From Bacteroidales bacterium (lineage in GTDB: Bacteria > Bacteroidota > Bacteroidia > Bacteroidales > UBA3824): a stretch of 52,881 bases of DNA. This document shows, one piece after another, positions 2 through 9,117 of this stretch (the first letter of the stretch is position 1; every line of letters starts with the position of its first letter). A program made the translations under genes and the position numbers. The stretch covers positions 1 to 52,881 of the forward strand of contig JAFXZT010000130.1 of NCBI GenBank assembly GCA_017541145.1, read 5' to 3'. The notes under the pieces are model-generated. The model saw nothing but the letters and a program-made list of their open reading frames with translations. It did no database searches and was not told where the DNA came from.

Positions 2-964
2 GCGCACGACCTTGGCATTATGAACTTTCTCTACTACGCTTTGATTAAATCAGGACTTCTTCCCCCGATTATTTTCATGGGTGTAGGTGCGCTGACGGAT
101 TTTGGTCCTATGCTCAGAAACTTGAAACTCGCGATTTTTGGTGCGGGTGCACAGTTCGGCATTTTTGCGGTATTGCTTGTTGCCTCTGCAACCGGTTATT
201 TCACATTGAAAGAATCTGCTTCATTGGCGATTATCGGCGGTGCTGACGGTCCGACGGCTATTTTTACGACGATAAAACTTGCTCCTGATATGCTCGGACC
301 GATTGCTATTGCGGCATATTCGTATATGGCTTTGGTTCCGGTGATTGTGCCTTTGGTTGTAAAACTTACTTGCAGCAAAAAGGAACTTTCAATCAACATG
401 AAAGAGCAGGACAAACTTTATCCTTCAAAAACCGAGTTCAAGAACATGCGTGCCTTGAAAATCATTTTCCCGATTGCGACGACAACGGTTGTTGCGATAA
501 TCGTTCCTTCGGCAGTTCCTTTGGTAGGAATGTTGATGTTTGGAAACTTGATAAAAGAGGTCGGCAGTTCTACATCGAGAATTTTTGACGCGGCTTCAAA
601 CGCGATTATGAACTCTGCGACAATATTCTTGGGACTTTGTGTCGGCGCAACAATGACTGTTGACGCTTTCTTGAATTGGCAGACAATCGGTATTGTATGC
701 GGCGGATTCTTGGCGTTCGGATTCTCGATTTTCGGCGGCATAATGTTGGCAAAACTTTACAACTTGTTCTCTAAGAAGAAAGTTAATCCGCTTATCGGTG
801 CAACCGGTTTGAGTGCCGTTCCGATGGCATCACGTGTTGCAAACGAAATCGCATTGAAATACGATCCTCGCAACCACGTGCTTAACTATTGCATGTCGTC
901 AAACGTTTCAGGCGTTATCGGCTCAGCAGTTGCAGCAGGTATTTTGATTGCATTCTTGGGATAA
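2..964 (+). CDS. oadB: Na+-translocating decarboxylase beta subunit (5' end outside window)
   Basis: This is the membrane subunit of a biotin-dependent, sodium-pumping decarboxylase (oxaloacetate or methylmalonyl-CoA type), which couples decarboxylation to Na+ export. The frame is open from base 2 with no start codon that fits, and the family normally has 50-90 more N-terminal residues, so the gene is cut by the window edge; the ATG at 20 is internal. Visible family signatures are GVGALTDFGP, the GGADGPTAIF segment that lines the ion path, NSATIFLGLCVGATM, and the C-terminal block ending in SGVIGSAVAAGILIAFLG. The protein is strongly hydrophobic with many membrane segments. The last 78 bases (889-966, with the stop codon) are repeated at 3122-3199 beyond the defence cassette. 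Oxaloacetate and methylmalonyl-CoA versions cannot be told apart from this subunit alone. Confidence 0.93.
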   Translation, partial: AHDLGIMNFLYYALIKSGLLPPIIFMGVGALTDFGPMLRNLKLAIFGAGAQFGIFAVLLVASATGYFTLKESASLAIIGGADGPTAIFTTIKLAPDMLGPIAIAAYSYMALVPVIVPLVVKLTCSKKELSINMKEQDKLYPSKTEFKNMRALKIIFPIATTTVVAIIVPSAVPLVGMLMFGNLIKEVGSSTSRIFDAASNAIMNSATIFLGLCVGATMTVDAFLNWQTIGIVCGGFLAFGFSIFGGIMLAKLYNLFSKKKVNPLIGATGLSAVPMASRVANEIALKYDPRNHVLNYCMSSNVSGVIGSAVAAGILIAFLG

Positions 965-966
965 GA
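889..966 (+). repeat. Direct repeat copy 1 (oadB 3' end, attL-like)
   Basis: These 78 bases at the end of oadB, including its TAA, match 3122-3199 at 76 positions. The two differences, C892/T3125 and C919/T3152, are both third-codon positions that keep Cys (TGC/TGT) and Ile (ATC/ATT). Sequence similarity stops just after the stop codon. A repeat that covers the 3' end of a conserved gene and includes its stop codon is the usual footprint of an element integrating at an attachment site without breaking the gene. Confidence 0.9.
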
Positions 967-984
967 CTAATACACTAATGTATT

Positions 985-1021
985 AAACGACGGATTTCTG
1001 AAAAATAATCCGTCGTTTTTT
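985..1021 (+). terminator. Intrinsic terminator after oadB
   Basis: A 12-base stem (985-996 with 1007-1018) closes a short A-rich loop and runs into a T-tract. It now terminates oadB, but it lies inside the repeat-bounded insert and so probably arrived with it. Confidence 0.85.
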
Positions 1022-1050
1022 GTTATATTTATAATAAAATGTTACCTTTG
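1019..1050 (+). promoter_or_regulatory. Bacteroidota-type promoter for ptuA-ptuB
   Basis: TTTG at 1019-1022, a 20-base spacer, and TACCTTTG at 1043-1050 match the Bacteroidota consensus exactly. The -33 box is carved from the T-tract of the preceding terminator. The start codon at 1079 lies about 28 bases downstream of the -7 box. The cassette therefore appears transcribed independently of oadB. Confidence 0.8.
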
Positions 1051-1078
1051 CAATTGGTAATCACAAATCCACTCAAAA

Positions 1079-2275
1079 ATGAAAGGCATTAAGATACGTT
1101 CCATATCCTTGAAATCATTCAAAGGCTTCGATGACATAACGATAGACTGTGCCAAGAGCGACACAGAACTCTATCAATGGACTATATTGTTGGGAAACAA
1201 CAATACAGGAAAGACGAGAATTTTGCAGGCGATAGCGGGGATGAGACCTGATTTTAATTTTGAAACGGAAAAAATTACCTTAGTCCCTGCATATTGGTGG
1301 AGTAGAAAAAAAAATGACCGAAATAGCAATGCGGATGTAATTTGCAAATTGACAAATTTTTCAGGTAAATGGAGTATAAAAAAGGTTGTTTATGGAACAC
1401 ATGACGATCATCCCGTTGATTTCCATATTTTCGGCTACGGTGTAGGTCGTTATCCTCTATTGAATACCAACCTATCAGGGCAAGAAAGTGGCGACTGCGA
1501 CACATTATTTTCTCATGAAAAAAGACTTATAAATATTGAAGAATGGTTGATAAGGTGTGATTATCAATCCAAAAGCAACAATTCCAAAGCCAAAAAACAA
1601 TTAGCAAAACTTCGCGAAGTAATTTGCAGCAACCTTTTTCCAGAAATTGAGGATTTCAAATTTGAAAGTACTGACAAAATGGAAAGTTACGTACTGTTCA
1701 AGACGAAGGACGGATGGTTCAAATATACGGAGTTGGGCTTTGGCTATCAGTCAATGCTTTCTTGGATTGTAGATTTGAGCAAACGCATGTTTGATAATTT
1801 TCCGGATTCAGACAATCCTCTTAATGAAAATGCAGTTGTTCTGGTTGATGAAATTGACTTGCATCTTCATCCGAAATGGCAGCGCGAAGTGATTTCGTAT
1901 GTTTCTGAGATTTTCAAAAATGTTCAATTCATCGTAACAACGCACAGCCCGTTGGTTATTCAATCAATGCAAGACGTAAATCTGTATGTTTTACGCAGAG
2001 AGGAAAACGGGAAAATCGCCGTGGAACATTCATCGCAACACAATTTCAGCGGTTGGACGGTAGAGGAAATATTGCGCGACACGATGAATTTGGATAATGA
2101 CATTCAATCCGATTATTTGCAACAATCATATAAAATGTTTGATGAAGGTCTTGATAATAACGATGTTGAAAAGGCATTGGAAGCATACAACACGCTTATA
2201 AAAATCCTTCATCCAAGCAATCCCGCGAGACGACTTTTGAAATTTCAATTAGGCCAAATGGACACCAATGATTAA
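1079..2275 (+). CDS. ptuA: Septu-type AAA ATPase (PtuA-like)
   Basis: This is a 398-residue SMC/ABC-like AAA ATPase of the kind paired with HNH nucleases in Septu anti-phage systems, where it forms the sensor and scaffold of the complex. Walker A is GNNNTGKT near residue 40, after an N-terminal strand-rich start (SLKSFKGFDDITID). A FGYGVGRYPL segment lies in the middle, and LGFGYQSMLSW sits where the ABC signature is expected. Walker B and D-loop are VVLVDEIDLHLHPKWQ (near 257-272), followed by the switch histidine in VTTHSPLVIQS. The C-terminal tail begins at SGWTVEEILRDT. The stop overlaps the next gene by 8 bases, so the pair is translationally coupled. No reverse transcriptase sits nearby, so a retron with PtuAB effectors is unlikely. 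The exact Septu subtype is not resolved. Confidence 0.75.
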   Translation: MKGIKIRSISLKSFKGFDDITIDCAKSDTELYQWTILLGNNNTGKTRILQAIAGMRPDFNFETEKITLVPAYWWSRKKNDRNSNADVICKLTNFSGKWSIKKVVYGTHDDHPVDFHIFGYGVGRYPLLNTNLSGQESGDCDTLFSHEKRLINIEEWLIRCDYQSKSNNSKAKKQLAKLREVICSNLFPEIEDFKFESTDKMESYVLFKTKDGWFKYTELGFGYQSMLSWIVDLSKRMFDNFPDSDNPLNENAVVLVDEIDLHLHPKWQREVISYVSEIFKNVQFIVTTHSPLVIQSMQDVNLYVLRREENGKIAVEHSSQHNFSGWTVEEILRDTMNLDNDIQSDYLQQSYKMFDEGLDNNDVEKALEAYNTLIKILHPSNPARRLLKFQLGQMDTND

Positions 2276-3005
2276 ACTTCAACTTATAGAAAAACCTGAG
2301 GAACTAACCGACGAAGTACAGCAACAACTGACTTCCGAGTTCAAGGCAGACCATCGTAAATGCGTATGGAAAAAGCCATACATCGAAAAAGCATTACTTA
2401 AAATGTCGCATAACAAATGCGCCTATTCTGAGCAATATATAAATCGAGAAAGCGCATATATGGAAATTGACCATTTTAAATGCAAAGATTTGTACGAAGA
2501 TTGTGTTGTAGAATGGGGTAATCTTCTGCCTTCATGTCAAAAATGTAATAGAACCAAATGGAAACATGACGTTGTATCAGAACCAATTGTTAATCCTCTG
2601 ACCGATACACCAAAAGAGTTTCTATACGTTAAAGCATTTAAATATTATCCTCGCGATAAAAAAGGAGAAACAACAATAGACGTACTTGGCATAAACGACA
2701 GAATACTCCTTACAAATCCAAGGGCTGAATTAGGATTCAAAATAGCTGATAATATTGGCAATTTGTTTGAGTTACTGAAATCTGCATCAACACCAAGGAA
2801 ACAAAACAATACTCTATCCAAAATAAAATCAGCATTGGAAGAATGTGGACCGACTTTTGAATATTCCGCCGTCATCTCCACCTATATTCTCTATGAAGAC
2901 GAAACCTACCAAGATTTGGAAAAATATCTCAAAAACAATAATTTATGGGATAATGATTTTGAAAAAATAAAACAAACATTGTCGGAAATAGCAATGCCCC
3001 AATAA
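2268..3005 (+). CDS. ptuB: HNH endonuclease partner (PtuB-like, TIGR02646-type)
   Basis: A 245-residue HNH-family nuclease, the presumed effector of the ATPase/HNH pair. The nuclease core occupies roughly residues 45-110: KCAYSE, then the metal-binding segment MEIDHFKCK, then WGNLLPSCQKCNRTK, then an NPLTDTP segment typical of the family. The ATG at 2268 overlaps the end of ptuA (ATGATTAA). The first zinc-knuckle motif, usually CxxC, is CAYS here, so one cysteine is replaced by serine; the second knuckle, CQKC, is intact. Whether this loosens the structural zinc site or is a normal sub-family trait cannot be judged from one sequence. The catalytic DH pair is present, so the protein is probably active. 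Confidence 0.72.
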   Translation: MIKLQLIEKPEELTDEVQQQLTSEFKADHRKCVWKKPYIEKALLKMSHNKCAYSEQYINRESAYMEIDHFKCKDLYEDCVVEWGNLLPSCQKCNRTKWKHDVVSEPIVNPLTDTPKEFLYVKAFKYYPRDKKGETTIDVLGINDRILLTNPRAELGFKIADNIGNLFELLKSASTPRKQNNTLSKIKSALEECGPTFEYSAVISTYILYEDETYQDLEKYLKNNNLWDNDFEKIKQTLSEIAMPQ

Positions 3006-3121
3006 TTGATTCTTATTATTGATATTCGTTGGCGAAATTAAAATTTATAATAAATCACAAAAATATTAGATAAAAAAGTTATATAATTAGAGATACGCAA
3101 AAGAGTTGTAGTGCAAAATGT

Positions 3122-3199
3122 TTGTATGTCGTCAAACGTTTCAGGCGTTATTGGCTCAGCAGTTGCAGCAGGTATTTTGATTGCATTCTTGGGATAAGA
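3122..3199 (+). repeat. Direct repeat copy 2 (displaced oadB 3' end, attR-like)
   Basis: This is the second copy of the oadB 3' end, cut off from any complete reading frame. It still encodes the last 24 residues of OadB and its TAA. The two differences from copy 1 are synonymous, so this DNA was under coding selection until recently or came from another strain's intact oadB. It is followed by the strong hairpin at 3222-3258. Confidence 0.9.
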
Positions 3200-3221
3200 T
3201 TGATTATTACAAGTATTAAAT

Positions 3222-3258
3222 AAAAAAAGGTTGCCGAACTCCTCGGCAACCTTTTTTT
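3222..3258. terminator. Bidirectional terminator, probably the original oadB terminator
   Basis: A perfect A/T-flanked stem (GGTTGCCGA with TCGGCAACC, five-base loop) has an A-tract on one side and a T-tract on the other, so it can work on both strands. Its place just after the displaced oadB end suggests that it ended oadB before the cassette was inserted. Confidence 0.88.
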
Positions 3259-3270
3259 GTTAAAATATTT

Positions 3271-3393: not shown

Positions 3394-3596
3394 TTATTAA
3401 AAAGTATATTTGAGTTGAGGATAATAAAATTAAGCCGTCAAAGAAACTTGGTGACAATTAATACGTATTTGTATTATCTACGCATTTTGTTAGAGAAACT
3501 GTAATCAAAAGTGTTATAATAATTTCTTTTTAATAGCCTTATTTTAAATGATTTCAAAAAAACTTACTATTTCTTTTGAAAATAATTGTCCAAAAA

Positions 3597-3628
3597 TTTG
3601 GAGGTTTCAAAAATTCGCTTTATCTTTG
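3597..3628 (+). promoter_or_regulatory. Promoter of the putative small RNA
   Basis: TTTG at 3597-3600, a 20-base spacer and TATCTTTG at 3621-3628 match the Bacteroidota promoter consensus, with the GC that often follows. No reading frame begins downstream before the terminator at 3678-3709. Confidence 0.7.
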
Positions 3629-3631
3629 CAT

Positions 3632-3709
3632 CACTTAAATAATTTAAGTGTTTCATGTTATAAAATATTATTTAGTTGGGAGGCGTTGTGATAACGACCT
3701 CCTTTTTTT
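3632..3709 (+). ncRNA. Putative ~78-nt small RNA
   Basis: A transcript from the promoter at 3597-3628 would begin almost exactly at a perfect 8-base-pair hairpin (3632-3639 with 3643-3650, three-base loop). It would continue through an AT-rich single-stranded stretch and end at a GC-rich hairpin plus T7 at 3678-3709. The layout of promoter, 5' stem, linker and intrinsic terminator within about 110 bases, with no start codon, is that of a stand-alone small RNA. No known family was recognised. A leader peptide or attenuator is less likely because the next gene starts almost 290 bases away. Confidence 0.5.
3678..3709 (+). terminator. Intrinsic terminator of the putative small RNA
   Basis: The stem pairs GGAGG (3679-3683) with CCTCC (3698-3702) and CGTT (3684-3687) with AACG (3693-3696), with one bulged A, and is followed by seven T residues. 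Confidence 0.75.
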
Positions 3710-4273: not shown

Positions 4274-4310
4274 AAAAGCCGGATTTTTTCAACAAAGTCC
4301 GGCTTTTGTT
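4274..4310. terminator. Bidirectional terminator between convergent genes
   Basis: AAAAGCCGGA at 4274-4283 pairs with TCCGGCTTTT at 4298-4307. It lies between the lipoprotein gene (+) and the helicase gene (-) and can serve both. Confidence 0.88.
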
Positions 4311-7300
4311 ATTTTTGAAGTTGTACTCTTCTAAAATTCAATAACGGTAAAATTATTGCGTATTCTTTTTCGTCGTCTTTGCAAAACCATGATAGTACAA
4401 AACGAATTTTTGCTGTAAAGGGTTCATAACCAATCTTTTGATAGGCTGATAATTTTTCCGTAAAAGCTTTGGAAAATTTCATAATTTCAAAGTTTTGGTG
4501 ATATAAGGTTTCTCCTTTAATATCAAGTTTTTGACCGCTCATTAATTTCAAAATTTCCAATTTCTTGTCTTTGAAGAATTTAAGATTTATATCCTTGTGA
4601 GTAAGCGCAACTATCAATTCTTCAGGACGTTCGTATTCCGTATTGTCAGTTGTAAAACTTGTAGACATCGGTTGTAAAAAATCCAAATTGTTTGAATTGT
4701 AATGGATATTTAGAAATCTTTTAGCACGTGTAAAACCGACATATAACCTTCGTTTGTCTTCGTCTGTGTTGATACTCAGATTGTTGAGGTACATAAAAAC
4801 GTGGTCGAATTCGCGGCCTTTGGCTTTGTGAATTGTGGATACCATTACTATCGATTTTTCTGTTTTAACAAAATCTTCCAACGATGATTCTCTCAGAAAT
4901 ACTACAAAATCAGTAAGATATTTGTCTTTATAATTGTTTTCAAAAGCTGTGATGATATCCAAAACCAAATGCAAGCATCCGCTTTGTAAATATTTTTCTG
5001 TTAATGTGTTTTTTGCTTTTTCCCATATTTCTGTGCTTATTTTGGGCGTTACAAGATTCTTTTTCAATGTTTTAACGAAGAATTTTAATTCCGCAATATT
5101 TGTAAGGTCAAAACCGACATTGCTTTGTATTAGTTTGCATTGAATTTTGTTTTTTAACAATATACCCAAAATAGCAAGAGCTTCTTGATTTGTGGAAGTC
5201 AAAACGGCGCAAGTTCCGCTTTGATAGTTGGTAATCAAATCGTTGACTACTGCATTTTCAAAACTGTTTTTACAAGTATGCTTTACCAATGTTACTTTTC
5301 CATTGTCTGAATTTTTTGATACAATTGGAATTGTTTTCATGCGTTGATTGATTGTTGTAACAAATCGATTAGCAAAGTCAACTATCTGAACCGCAGACCG
5401 ATAATTTTCTACCAGTTCGTAATTTGTGGCTTTATATTTTTGTATCATTTGCGCCAAATATTCCGATGATGAACCTCTGAACTGATAGATATTTTGATCA
5501 TCGTCGCCAACTGCTATTACTCTCAGATTATCATTGTTTTCTATTAAGGCTTCTACCAACGCAAATTCATTTTTGTCCATGTCTTGCGCTTCGTCGATTA
5601 CAAGAACTTTTTTTGTGATTTTGTTTTGTTCTACTTCGTGATTCCTTATCATTTCTGAGGCTTTGAAAACTACGTCGGCAGATTCTTCTATTTTACCGAT
5701 TTGACCAATCAAATCAAAACAATACGAATGAAACGTTTTGATTTCCACAAAGTTGGCAACATTTCCCATCAATTTACAAAGTCGTGATTTAAATTCCAAT
5801 GCCGCAGCACGTGAAAATGTCAACATCAAAAGTTGTTCGTGTTTGATATCCTCCAAAAGAAGTAATGATGCAAGTTTATGAACCAAAACTCGTGTTTTTC
5901 CACTGCCCGGACCTGCCGAAACCACGATATGTGGCGAAGTGTTATCGTCTATGATTTCTTTTTGTTTAATTGACAGTGTTTCAAATAGTTCCTTGTATCT
6001 TTTGGGCGTGATATTCCGCTCTATTTCTTTCAATCGTTCTTGTGTAAAGTATCTTGCTAAAAATTTCTTGTAGTCAAGATTGAAATAATCTTTTACAAAG
6101 TTTAACGCGTCATTGTAATTCTTTACCATCATATTTGCAAATTCACCTACGATATGGATTTGTTGAATTTTTTGACTGTAAAATTCGTCCATTTGTTTGT
6201 AATCTTCTTTGGTGTATTGCTGACGATTGTTTAGGTTTAAACGGTTGATATTTAGACCCATATAAATTACAAGAAATCCGCCTTCCAATTTCATAGAGTT
6301 GATTTTTGCTAAAAACAGTAATGATTCTTCTACGTCGGAAATTTCGGCTTCAAATTCTTTGTAAAGTGAGTTGTTATAATTATTTAGTAATTCAATTATC
6401 GAAAATAGTATCAAATTGTTGTCAGAATTGTTGGTTGCGGTGTAACGTTCCAACAAAAAACTGATAATAAAAGATGACATCGCAAACATCTTTCTCTGTT
6501 TTTCACGCAGCAATGCTAATGGAATTTGTGGTATAATTAGCACTGTATCAGACGATTCTTGTGACAATTTGATGTATGATTTTATTTTCCAAAACAATAA
6601 AATCGTTTTGATGTTTTTTACATTTGATGCAAGTTTCAGTTTCTCTGCTTCTTCGTTTAATTGTTTGATATTAAATGTGTTGCCCTCTTGTATTAAGTTG
6701 TCCAAGATAAAGAAATCCAAATCGTAAAATGCTTTCAAAATTTTTTGAGTTTCTTTTGGTGAGTTGATATACGCAGAGAGGTCGCGGTCGTCTTTCAAGA
6801 TTTTTTCTTGTCGCATGGTTTGAACAGCCGAAATTACGTTTTCTTTTGTAATTCCGAGTGTATCAGCGAGATAATCAATACGACTTTCTGCATCATCGTT
6901 TCCTGCACGAGCAACATATTTGCTTGAAATTAAGGATTTTATGATTCGTTTTGCATTTTCTTTGCTACTGTCGGTCAAAAATAATTTTGATTCATTGATT
7001 TTGTTTGCTGCTTCATCGAAGTTTTTTGCTAAAATACTTGTAGCGTAAACGTGCGGCGAATTTTTGCCGCGTTGGATATAACCGGCGTTTTCAAGTGCTT
7101 GCAACGCAGTTTTTACGCGAGTTTCTACATCGCTTACTTCGTAGTCCCAGCCGGCAGCTCTGGCAATTTCCAATGCTGACGAACAGAATGATTTGCGGTA
7201 TCTGGTTTGATTTTTTATTGCTTTCCAAACTTGATTGATTTCGGCACACGAAATTTTGGTTTGGTTGTTCAAAATGAAATGTTTATCCAAATCATTGTTG

Positions 7301-9060
7301 TTGTAAAGTACAAAACATTCGGCTTCAAGATTCGGATCACGACCTGCACGTCCGGCTTCTTGTACATAATTTTCGAGTGAATCAGAGATGTCGTAATGGA
7401 TTACTAATTTTACATTTGATTTGTCAACACCCATGCCGAATGCCGAGGTTGCCACCATTACTTGTACTTTGTCTGAAATAAATGCATCTTGATTTTTTTG
7501 TTTTTCTTTCGGCTCCATTTTCCCGTTGAAAGCCAATGATTTGATGCCGTCTCTTGTTAGTTTTTCTGCAAGTAAAATTGTTCGTTTTGTTCTTGATACA
7601 TAGACAATTGTCGGACAATTTTTTGTTTCAATCAAGTCTCTTAATGTTGTATATTTTTCTTCTTCGGTTTCTTTGAAAAGTACTTGGTAACGAAGATTGG
7701 TACGAGATGCTGTTGTTGCAAATATTTTGAGTTCGATATTGAGTTTTGTTTTGAAATAGTCTTTGATATCCGATACTACCTTTTGTTTTGCTGTGGCAGT
7801 AAAACACGATACAGGGATGCTTTTACATTTCTTTTTCTGTGCTAACTCTCTGATATAGTCGCCAATATAGAGATAGTCAACACGAAAATCCTGTCCCCAT
7901 GCGCTGAAACAATGTGCTTCATCAATTACAAATCTTGCAATCTGACGTTTTAGTAACAATGTTTCAATAGTTTTGCTTCTGAGTGATTCCGGCGAGATAT
8001 ACAACAATGAAGCTACTCCGGATTCTACTCTTTCGATAGCCTCTTGCCGTTCAAGCGGACTTAATAATCCGTTTATTGTAACAGCGTCGGCAATTCCGCG
8101 TTTTTCGAGATTGTCAACTTGGTCTTTCATAAGCGATTGCAACGGCGATATTACAACTGTTAACGCCCTTTCCGTGATTCCTGAAATCAGAGCCGGAAGT
8201 TGAAATGTCAGACTTTTGCCGCCGCCGGTTGGAAAAATTGCAAGTAATGACATGTTTTCAACAGCGGCTTTTACTGCATTTTGTTGCAACGGTTCGCCGC
8301 CGTAAGTTCTAAAATTGTCAAAACCAAAAATCTTTTTCAGATGAACCGACGGGTTGAGCAATTGATTGCAATATTCACAATATCCGCATGGCGTATTCCT
8401 TAGAATTTTTATAACTGTTTCTACCATAGGATATTGCAGATGAACCCAATATGGAATAATTGAGTTTTTGTCTTTCGTGGTAATAATTGCGAGAGTATAA
8501 GCAAGTGCAACCGGCGAATTATTAATCAGAGTTTCTATTGGCGCATTTTTACAAATTTTACCGTCAAAATAGTTTGTAATCAACTGATAAACATCTTCTT
8601 GCGGGGTGCAATTGTTGTACACGAAAAATCCGTTGAATTCATCTTTTGTGTACAGAAGATCTATTAAGATGTTTCTGTAGTTTTGATTCAACGATTGAAA
8701 CGCATTTACTTCGTCATAAAACAATTCCTTAGCCTTGATTGCATCATTCAGAGGATTGGAAAGTTCGTCAGATATAATTTTGTCGTCCTTCAAAAGTTTA
8801 TGGTACGGCTTTTCCGGAAATAGCAACGGCGAAAAATATAATGTATCAATTAGATACGTGTCTTTAGCACGATTGAAGTAATTGGAATCGTGATGACAAA
8901 TATTATGACCGCAAATAAATTTGAAATCTTTAATGAAATTTTCAAAATCTGAACTTTGTGAAGTGTGTAAAGTTTTTCCGTCCATAGAAACCGCACCAAA
9001 GTCCAAAACCTTTTTTGTTTGCGGATTTACCTCAAGATCGATAAAAACAACACTTTGCAT
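4309..9060 (-). CDS. DEDD exonuclease - RecQ helicase - UvrD helicase fusion
   Basis: A 1583-residue three-engine DNA repair protein. Residues 1-150 look like a DnaQ/RNase T-type 3'-5' exonuclease (FIDLE, later GHNICHHDS). Residues about 260-640 are a RecQ-type helicase: GGGKSLTFQLPA near 282, DEAHCFSAWGQDFR near 382, MGVDKSNVKLVIHYD, and QEAGRAGRD near 570. Residues about 1030-1530 are a UvrD/Rep-type helicase: SAGPGSGKTRVLVHKLA near 1052, VIDEAQDMD near 1160, GDDDQNIYQFRGS, and STIHKAKGREFDHV near 1408. The start is placed at 9060: an ATG at 9099 is in frame, but a promoter -7 box (9087-9094) lies inside that extension, and the exonuclease fold begins right after 9060. Likely roles are processing of stalled forks or recombination intermediates (inference). 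It appears to be a single-gene transcript. Confidence 0.85.
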   Translation of the reverse strand: MQSVVFIDLEVNPQTKKVLDFGAVSMDGKTLHTSQSSDFENFIKDFKFICGHNICHHDSNYFNRAKDTYLIDTLYFSPLLFPEKPYHKLLKDDKIISDELSNPLNDAIKAKELFYDEVNAFQSLNQNYRNILIDLLYTKDEFNGFFVYNNCTPQEDVYQLITNYFDGKICKNAPIETLINNSPVALAYTLAIITTKDKNSIIPYWVHLQYPMVETVIKILRNTPCGYCEYCNQLLNPSVHLKKIFGFDNFRTYGGEPLQQNAVKAAVENMSLLAIFPTGGGKSLTFQLPALISGITERALTVVISPLQSLMKDQVDNLEKRGIADAVTINGLLSPLERQEAIERVESGVASLLYISPESLRSKTIETLLLKRQIARFVIDEAHCFSAWGQDFRVDYLYIGDYIRELAQKKKCKSIPVSCFTATAKQKVVSDIKDYFKTKLNIELKIFATTASRTNLRYQVLFKETEEEKYTTLRDLIETKNCPTIVYVSRTKRTILLAEKLTRDGIKSLAFNGKMEPKEKQKNQDAFISDKVQVMVATSAFGMGVDKSNVKLVIHYDISDSLENYVQEAGRAGRDPNLEAECFVLYNNNDLDKHFILNNQTKISCAEINQVWKAIKNQTRYRKSFCSSALEIARAAGWDYEVSDVETRVKTALQALENAGYIQRGKNSPHVYATSILAKNFDEAANKINESKLFLTDSSKENAKRIIKSLISSKYVARAGNDDAESRIDYLADTLGITKENVISAVQTMRQEKILKDDRDLSAYINSPKETQKILKAFYDLDFFILDNLIQEGNTFNIKQLNEEAEKLKLASNVKNIKTILLFWKIKSYIKLSQESSDTVLIIPQIPLALLREKQRKMFAMSSFIISFLLERYTATNNSDNNLILFSIIELLNNYNNSLYKEFEAEISDVEESLLFLAKINSMKLEGGFLVIYMGLNINRLNLNNRQQYTKEDYKQMDEFYSQKIQQIHIVGEFANMMVKNYNDALNFVKDYFNLDYKKFLARYFTQERLKEIERNITPKRYKELFETLSIKQKEIIDDNTSPHIVVSAGPGSGKTRVLVHKLASLLLLEDIKHEQLLMLTFSRAAALEFKSRLCKLMGNVANFVEIKTFHSYCFDLIGQIGKIEESADVVFKASEMIRNHEVEQNKITKKVLVIDEAQDMDKNEFALVEALIENNDNLRVIAVGDDDQNIYQFRGSSSEYLAQMIQKYKATNYELVENYRSAVQIVDFANRFVTTINQRMKTIPIVSKNSDNGKVTLVKHTCKNSFENAVVNDLITNYQSGTCAVLTSTNQEALAILGILLKNKIQCKLIQSNVGFDLTNIAELKFFVKTLKKNLVTPKISTEIWEKAKNTLTEKYLQSGCLHLVLDIITAFENNYKDKYLTDFVVFLRESSLEDFVKTEKSIVMVSTIHKAKGREFDHVFMYLNNLSINTDEDKRRLYVGFTRAKRFLNIHYNSNNLDFLQPMSTSFTTDNTEYERPEELIVALTHKDINLKFFKDKKLEILKLMSGQKLDIKGETLYHQNFEIMKFSKAFTEKLSAYQKIGYEPFTAKIRFVLSWFCKDDEKEYAIILPLLNFRRVQLQK

Positions 9061-9086
9061 AAATATTGAATTTTGAGTTAATAGTG

Positions 9087-9117
9087 CAAATCTAATCAAT
9101 AATTTTTAAAAATACAA
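9087..9117 (-). promoter_or_regulatory. Promoter of the helicase fusion gene
   Basis: On the reverse strand, TTG (9115-9117), a 20-base spacer and TAGATTTG (9087-9094) match the consensus. This places the transcript start near 9080, downstream of the in-frame ATG at 9099, and decides the start codon at 9060. Confidence 0.75.

Follow-up and report, generated by a model that had tools for sequence, protein, structure and literature searches.

A predicted Septu type I cassette at a recurrent insertion point behind oadB in a Bacteroidales genome, and its possible arrival without a dedicated integrase

The locus described here raises the question of how a two-gene defence cassette that carries no integrase came to lie between two copies of the 3' end of oadB, the gene for the beta subunit of a Na+-transporting oxaloacetate decarboxylase. 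The window, that is, the whole stretch of DNA that was analysed, comprises 52,881 nucleotides of contig JAFXZT010000130.1 (assembly GCA_017541145.1, hereafter genome G000) from a Bacteroidales bacterium of the UBA3824 lineage, and it begins with the 3' part of oadB, followed by a predicted Septu type I pair, ptuA and ptuB. In this study, the locus was compared with the oadB loci of its genus. The comparison suggests that the cassette occupies a recurrent point of insertion or exchange behind oadB and most likely arrived by a single crossover in which no dedicated integrase took part, a reading towards which we lean with modest confidence.

The 3' part of oadB was found at 20..964 on the forward strand (Pfam PF03977, E 4.3e-114), where 314 codons are in view from an internal ATG in a frame that is open from the window start. 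The first copy of the direct repeat (889..966, forward strand) consists of the final 76 bases of oadB, with its stop codon, and two bases beyond, and the second (3122..3199, forward strand) is a partial 3' end from which the rest of the gene is absent. When recomputed, the copies were identical at 76 of 78 positions and both differences were silent third-position changes (892 C and 3125 T, TGC/TGT, Cys; 919 C and 3152 T, ATC/ATT, Ile), exactly as an earlier sequence-only reading of the window had described. Between the final 298 bases of oadB and the next 2.3 kb, exact matches reached 45 bases in length, as against a maximum of 13 in 200 mononucleotide shuffles. In G000 (4.63 Mb, 192 contigs, 97% complete), a query of bases 880-980 matched two places only, both of them repeat copies. 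Copy 2 is preceded by a spacer that follows ptuB (3006..3121, forward strand; read from the sequence) and is followed by an intrinsic terminator with a 19-pair stem and a T tail (3219..3261, forward strand; terminator scan). This architecture bears out the proposal that insertion at the 3' end left oadB whole; that the hairpin at 3222-3258 was the original terminator of the gene is a guess.

The cassette between the repeats consists of two genes. The ptuA gene (1079..2275, forward strand) encodes a predicted Septu type I ATPase of 398 amino acids, which matched PADLOC PtuA (PDLC00304, E 4e-100) and Pfam AAA_15/AAA_21 and is related in sequence to solved PtuA chains. The ptuB gene (2268..3005, forward strand) encodes a predicted Septu HNH-type nuclease of 245 amino acids, which matched PADLOC PtuB (PDLC00342, E 1.9e-83) and, weakly, TIGR02646 and solved PtuB-type chains; Pfam gave no match for it. 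The two open reading frames (ORFs) overlap by 8 bases, and each is open from start to stop. The cassette resembles Septu type I in its two overlapping genes for an ATPase and an HNH-type nuclease with strong PADLOC matches, and in having no reverse transcriptase ORF. By contrast, the proteins scored far under the cut-offs of the NCBIfam PtuA and PtuB equivalog models of retron Ec78 (175.5 of 500 and 40.7 of 150 bits). On these matches, the cassette is a predicted Septu type I defence pair with a predicted anti-phage role, and the sequence-only reading of a Septu-like ATPase/HNH unit was confirmed by the PADLOC assignments. A promoter-like box, TTACCTTTG, lies before ptuA (1042..1050, forward strand; read from the sequence), for which TATCTTTG stands at the equivalent place in G006 and G014. 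The promoter call takes as its basis what we assume to be the Bacteroidota consensus. The PtuB of the window reads CAYSE where TIGR02646-type proteins presumably read CAYCE, and the same Ser occurs in the PtuB ORFs of G006, G014, G001, G011 and G008. For PtuAB pairs that have been studied, nicked DNA or tRNA-Tyr is named as the target in the consulted portions of two reports (PMC11555353, PMC13096335).

The recurrence of this arrangement was assessed in a genus sample of 18 genomes, all of them drafts, in 15 of which oadB was found both by DNA and by protein search. Twelve of these 15 loci have at least 1.3 kb downstream and were testable for a repeat; the remaining three, in G003, G005 and G017, show 159, 159 and 498 bases. 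Among the 12 testable loci, cargo followed by a partial oadB end was present at three, in G000, in G006 and, twice, in G015. The partial end was absent at the other nine, so the repeat is not a fixture of every relative regardless of the cassette. With positions numbered backwards from the final base of the oadB stop codon, the left edges of the copies that reach the stop lie at -75 (G000), -29 (G006), and -199 and -56 (G015), and the lengths across events are 76, 30, 57 and 200 bases. The copy in G006 is 90% identical up to the stop and adjoins the ptuB stop directly. Septu itself lies behind oadB in three of the 15 loci, namely G000, G006, where ptuA is split over two frames, and G014, where the cassette occupies the same spot and the repeat is absent. 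In G014 the cassette replaces a hairpin that is found behind oadB in the cassette-free G007 and G001, and beyond the cassette the agreement with their sequence resumes at a T-rich run. Accessory genes of different kinds thus occur behind oadB among the relatives, with Septu at 3/15 and an MntA/HepT-like pair at 1/15; other neighbours elsewhere are partly common within clades, and none is in view in G003 and G005. Judging from the repeats with cargo in G000, G006 and G015 and from Septu in G014, set against the cassette-free relatives, the 3' side of oadB is a recurrent insertion point.

Empty sites had also been predicted, and this part of the earlier reading was only partly upheld: G007 and G001 provide a cassette-free comparison for G014, but oadB followed by the 3222-3258 hairpin was found in none of the 14 relatives within the first 70 bases behind the gene, where terminators differ by lineage. 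Outside the genus, none of the 35 oadB loci for which 1.3 kb or more of downstream sequence was available has a repeat that reaches the gene end, in a set made of the 40 best-ranked oadB matches from other families of the order, which is not a random draw; three short internal repeat hits in that set (G237, G227 and G371) were judged to be chance.

The locus of G015 answers to the expectation that other cargo would be found between oadB-derived repeats. Its first cargo is an ORF of 102 amino acids, which we take to be MntA-like from a motif, together with a HepT-like protein (PF01934, 4e-17); PADLOC gave no match for this pair, which was accordingly not retained as a defence unit. Downstream of the most distal oadB copy of G015, the same leader occurs again, with a truncated remnant of mntA. 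This remnant suggests that G015 would have taken at least two insertions, and it is as expected if a newer unit entered in front of an older one. Between oadB copies 2 and 3 lie 8.4 kb (locus L024, contig C112 of G015) in which some ORFs resemble transposase pieces by eye; this segment also encodes a DUF5686 protein, the prohead protease of family PF04586 and, below the Pfam cut-off, a capsid-like protein.

Moreover, the moving unit appears to have a left end of its own. A terminator-like hairpin, AAACGACGGATT..AATCCGTCGTTT (CGACGGATT..AATCCGTCG), lies ahead of ptuA (985..1022, forward strand); it was recognised by eye and is absent from the list of the terminator scan. Each of the three Septu loci has it between the oadB stop and ptuA, G014 with one base changed, and it was not found behind oadB at the 12 other loci of the genus, which indicates that the unit that moves includes DNA directly behind the oadB stop. 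Comparison of oadB (-945 to -100) with the cassettes gave identities of 87.4% and 70.5% for G000 and G006, 77.2% and 78.8% for G000 and G014, and 74.3% and 75.8% for G006 and G014; between G000 and G014, about 165 bases around the promoter and the ptuA start hold 2 differences. By these identities, the distances between cassettes and those between hosts disagree. Furthermore, oadB of G000 is 95-100% identical to that of G008 in each 100-base bin from about -1100 to -74 and 71-93% identical farther upstream, and the upstream switch falls within the G000 contig C112, away from the contig joint. In the last 73 bases of the gene this pair has 7 differences, and each of the 800 overlapping 73-base windows before has at most 5. 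Among the pairs listed, five are at least 97% identical, and three of them (G003-G005, G000-G008 and G009-G005, two of which share G005) have an identity lower by 6.6-8.4 points in the last 73 bases than before them. Together, the mosaic sequence of oadB and the cassette points to homologous recombination.

Whether oadB is special in this respect was addressed by a scan for duplicated gene ends across 1.29 Mb of G000 and G015 (81 stretches, among them the window, with 1004 ORFs of 90 amino acids or more), with hits at E <= 1e-4 within 15 kb and with hits short of the gene end dropped. The counts exclude a first scan (0.63 Mb) whose oadB loci were chosen on purpose, and the figure of 1003 ORFs other than oadB is an upper one, as ORFs near stretch ends had less sequence downstream. 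Among these, one other clear footprint was found, at a glycosyl hydrolase family 8 (GH8) gene of G015 (PF01270). Its last 51 bases (from -50) recur 1.67 kb downstream with 90% identity, a gene for 305 amino acids lies between, and similar terminators stand behind both copies. Neither Pfam nor PADLOC matched the 305-amino-acid cargo, and no repeat was seen within about 1.5 kb in five relatives with the GH8 gene end in view. Hits in L136 and L187, judged from the hit pattern alone, and in L146, which was inspected, were set aside as tandem paralogs or in-gene repeats, and a 22-base hit in L181 was excluded from the count of clear cases without inspection. Three duplications at or near gene starts (L181 and L185, inspected; L173, by pattern) were in tandem arrays or paralogs. 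The footprint is therefore not confined to oadB, but it is rare, and oadB is enriched for it. A second Septu locus, L102, may represent a further recombination footprint. At 890-3056 of this locus (contig C135 of G008), a pair whose PtuA is 59% identical lies behind a bcp-like gene, within what is left of an AlbA-like gene (both genes named by eye), and 39-base direct repeats, 90% alike, stand on either side of it. These repeats were left out of the footprint count because parts of the AlbA-like gene are found again in several genomes. PtuA relatives in G001 and G011 (58-59%) have no such flanking repeat in the stretch viewed.

On the preferred reading, DNA of a related species carrying an oadB end, a terminator and cargo would enter the cell, where end joining would probably circularise it and so give an oadB end of random length. 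The circle would then integrate by a single RecA-type crossover at the recipient oadB. The outcome would be an intact oadB followed by the cargo and, beyond the cargo, a partial oadB end whose length varies. Later homologous exchange would shuttle cassettes between species, and the displaced copy would decay. Circularisation, crossover, RecA dependence and decay are the steps that we infer. A recombination-driven defence hotspot is suggested by the whole gene, the travelling terminator, the variable partial copy, the lack of any integrase found and the presence of more than one affected gene. A comparable process is described for lacZ of E. coli in the consulted part of one report (PMC3240628): linear DNA homologous to the gene end was closed up and integrated by a single crossover, the polymerase chain reaction product of a partial duplication was obtained from 56 of 60 Lac- clones, the duplications measured 109-950 bp in the 14 clones sequenced, and the crossovers were recA-dependent. 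The likeness lies in the partial gene-end duplication of variable length that flanks the cargo; the difference is that a laboratory plasmid in E. coli was concerned there, and natural Bacteroidales loci with more than one cargo are concerned here.

The main rival is site-specific integration, in which the oadB 3' end would serve as attachment site for an integrase supplied in trans or since lost, and a gene-end copy carried by the element would restore the gene. Such integration would fit the intact oadB, the different cargo (Septu and the MntA/HepT-like pair) at one point, the resemblance of G015 to tandem accretion and the enrichment of oadB over other genes. Genomic islands reportedly occur at the 3' ends of tRNA and trmE genes, and islands also insert at those of guaA and icd. 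As at these islands, the gene end at oadB is regenerated and a displaced copy stands at the far end; unlike them, which carry or use an integrase, the oadB locus has none that could be found, and its repeat edge varies by event. Independent events share no edge (-29, -56, -75 and -199), where decay after insertion could blur the edges. The cassette lacks an integrase, and in G000 the search of families PF00589 and PF00239 gave no candidate integrase beyond two PF00589 proteins, one of which passes the XerD cut-off and the other of which is best matched by XerC below the cut-off, and two PF00239 matches, a resolvase-type frame of 195 amino acids and a frame of 66 amino acids at a contig end. 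The search for a tyrosine recombinase in the genome, which the earlier reading had proposed, thus came down to XerC/XerD-like proteins; other genomes of the genus have one to eight PF00589 matches each. Nor did a search of the 18 genus genomes at E <= 0.001 bring up an oadB 3' piece at any other place (for five genomes, the first 27 of 30-41 candidates were scored). Viral contigs yielded no oadB end by one exact degenerate pattern, which fits G000 but not every relative (G015 misses), and plasmids and phages gave partial matches only, in 5 plasmid records and 1 unannotated phage clone. A phage or plasmid carrier was set aside as well: viral contigs held neither the oadB-end pattern nor a PtuA relative, and PtuA matches in 119 plasmid and 9 phage records were all below 60% identity (23-40% among the matches listed). 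A dif/Xer site was also set aside: the short palindrome that follows copy 1 at about 969-987 is, by eye, not conserved in G006 and G014. With repeat lengths that differ, G014 without a repeat and the GH8 gene bearing the same footprint, the dedicated integrase-type site that had been proposed at oadB is not supported, and site-specific integration in general is unlikely in our estimate. A local rearrangement, in which illegitimate insertion or template switching beside oadB duplicated a piece of the gene end that did not travel with the cargo, would agree with the varying duplication lengths, with the lack of an integrase found and with the clean exchange of terminator for cassette in G014 at the T-rich run. 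Homology-facilitated illegitimate recombination is, moreover, described in the consulted part of PMC3240628. Against it stand the leading hairpin common to three hosts, by which DNA behind the oadB stop moves with the cassette, and the exchange of the last 73 oadB bases in some close pairs, and it appears improbable. An assembly or binning artefact is very improbable: the genus genomes are drafts, the window begins at a contig break inside oadB and G000 has 4.22% contamination, but two further assemblies, G014 and G006, also have an oadB-Septu junction, and G015 has its own case. Furthermore, a 78-base repeat is shorter than usual sequencing reads.

Several observations weigh against arrival by a single crossover of imported DNA. 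Two of the five pairs listed at 97% or above, G014-G007 and G009-G003, are not less alike at the gene end (-2.5 and -0.1 points), and the last 73 oadB bases are more alike in general, by a mean of 8.1 points over all compared pairs (sd 5.4). For this reason, the identity of copy 1 to G009 (100%) and G003 (99%) over 73 bases was set aside as proof of import, since a stretch that is alike in most pairs makes the match to G009 weak evidence. After a simple crossover into a gene like that of G008, copy 2 would be expected to be G008-like, but the two copies in G000 resemble each other, and copy 2 has 9 differences from G008 in 75 positions; later gene conversion or a second import must therefore be assumed. 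The footprint occurs at 2 of 11 oadB loci, the window excluded, compared with 1 of 1003 other ORFs (Fisher p 3e-4; 0.02 counting G015 alone), an enrichment that a site-specific target would also fit. Finally, the 18 draft genomes showed neither a circle or excision product nor an empty site at strain level.

Some further features were recorded in and around the locus. Contig C112 of G000 ends in exactly the bases 1-91 of the window, which indicates that the assembly broke inside oadB and that the contig start lies within the gene; the 72-base match that a whole-oadB query adds at the end of C112 is this contig overlap. Several other oadB contigs end 85-498 bases downstream of the gene. In G005 (L029), the end of the 159 bases behind oadB resembles what we take to be the end of a group II intron, and the contig of G003 likewise ends 159 bases past the oadB stop. 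Downstream in the window, an intergenic segment at 3540-3642 (TTTGGAGGTTTCAAAAATTCGCTTTATCTTTGCATC) recurs at about twenty places in genus genomes with 73-89% identity, as a repeated leader- or promoter-like element. On the reverse strand, 4309-9099 holds an ORF of 1596 amino acids with, by eye, an exonuclease-like N-terminus and RecQ-like and UvrD-like helicase parts; near-full-length DNA matches of 70-73% occur in relatives on contigs other than that of oadB.

No report of oadB as an insertion site was found in the literature searches made here. Hotspots without mobile elements, in which recombination takes place at flanking core genes, are known (PMC5635113), and the oadB locus resembles them in its turnover behind a conserved gene, in the mosaic flanking gene and in the lack of an integrase found. 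The model given in the consulted part of that report is double recombination at two flanking core genes; the oadB locus differs in keeping the partial end of one gene on the far side. We further suggest, as a tentative and rather doubtful idea, that the duplicated oadB end, short and well conserved, is more than a scar and forms with the co-travelling terminator a portable homology arm of an integrase-free mobile cassette, by which RecA would loop small defence operons out and then into that gene in other species while the host gene is kept whole. If this were true, other conserved gene ends could serve in the same way, with oadB and the GH8 gene as two cases.

In conclusion, many gene hotspots have no visible mobile element, according to the same part of that report (PMC5635113), and the movement of small defence units in such hotspots is still to be explained. 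The footprint, with a whole gene, a travelling terminator, a small cassette and a partial gene-end copy of variable length, is a testable sequence signature of movement by ordinary recombination, and it offers a way to find small defence units that are missed by integrase-based searches.

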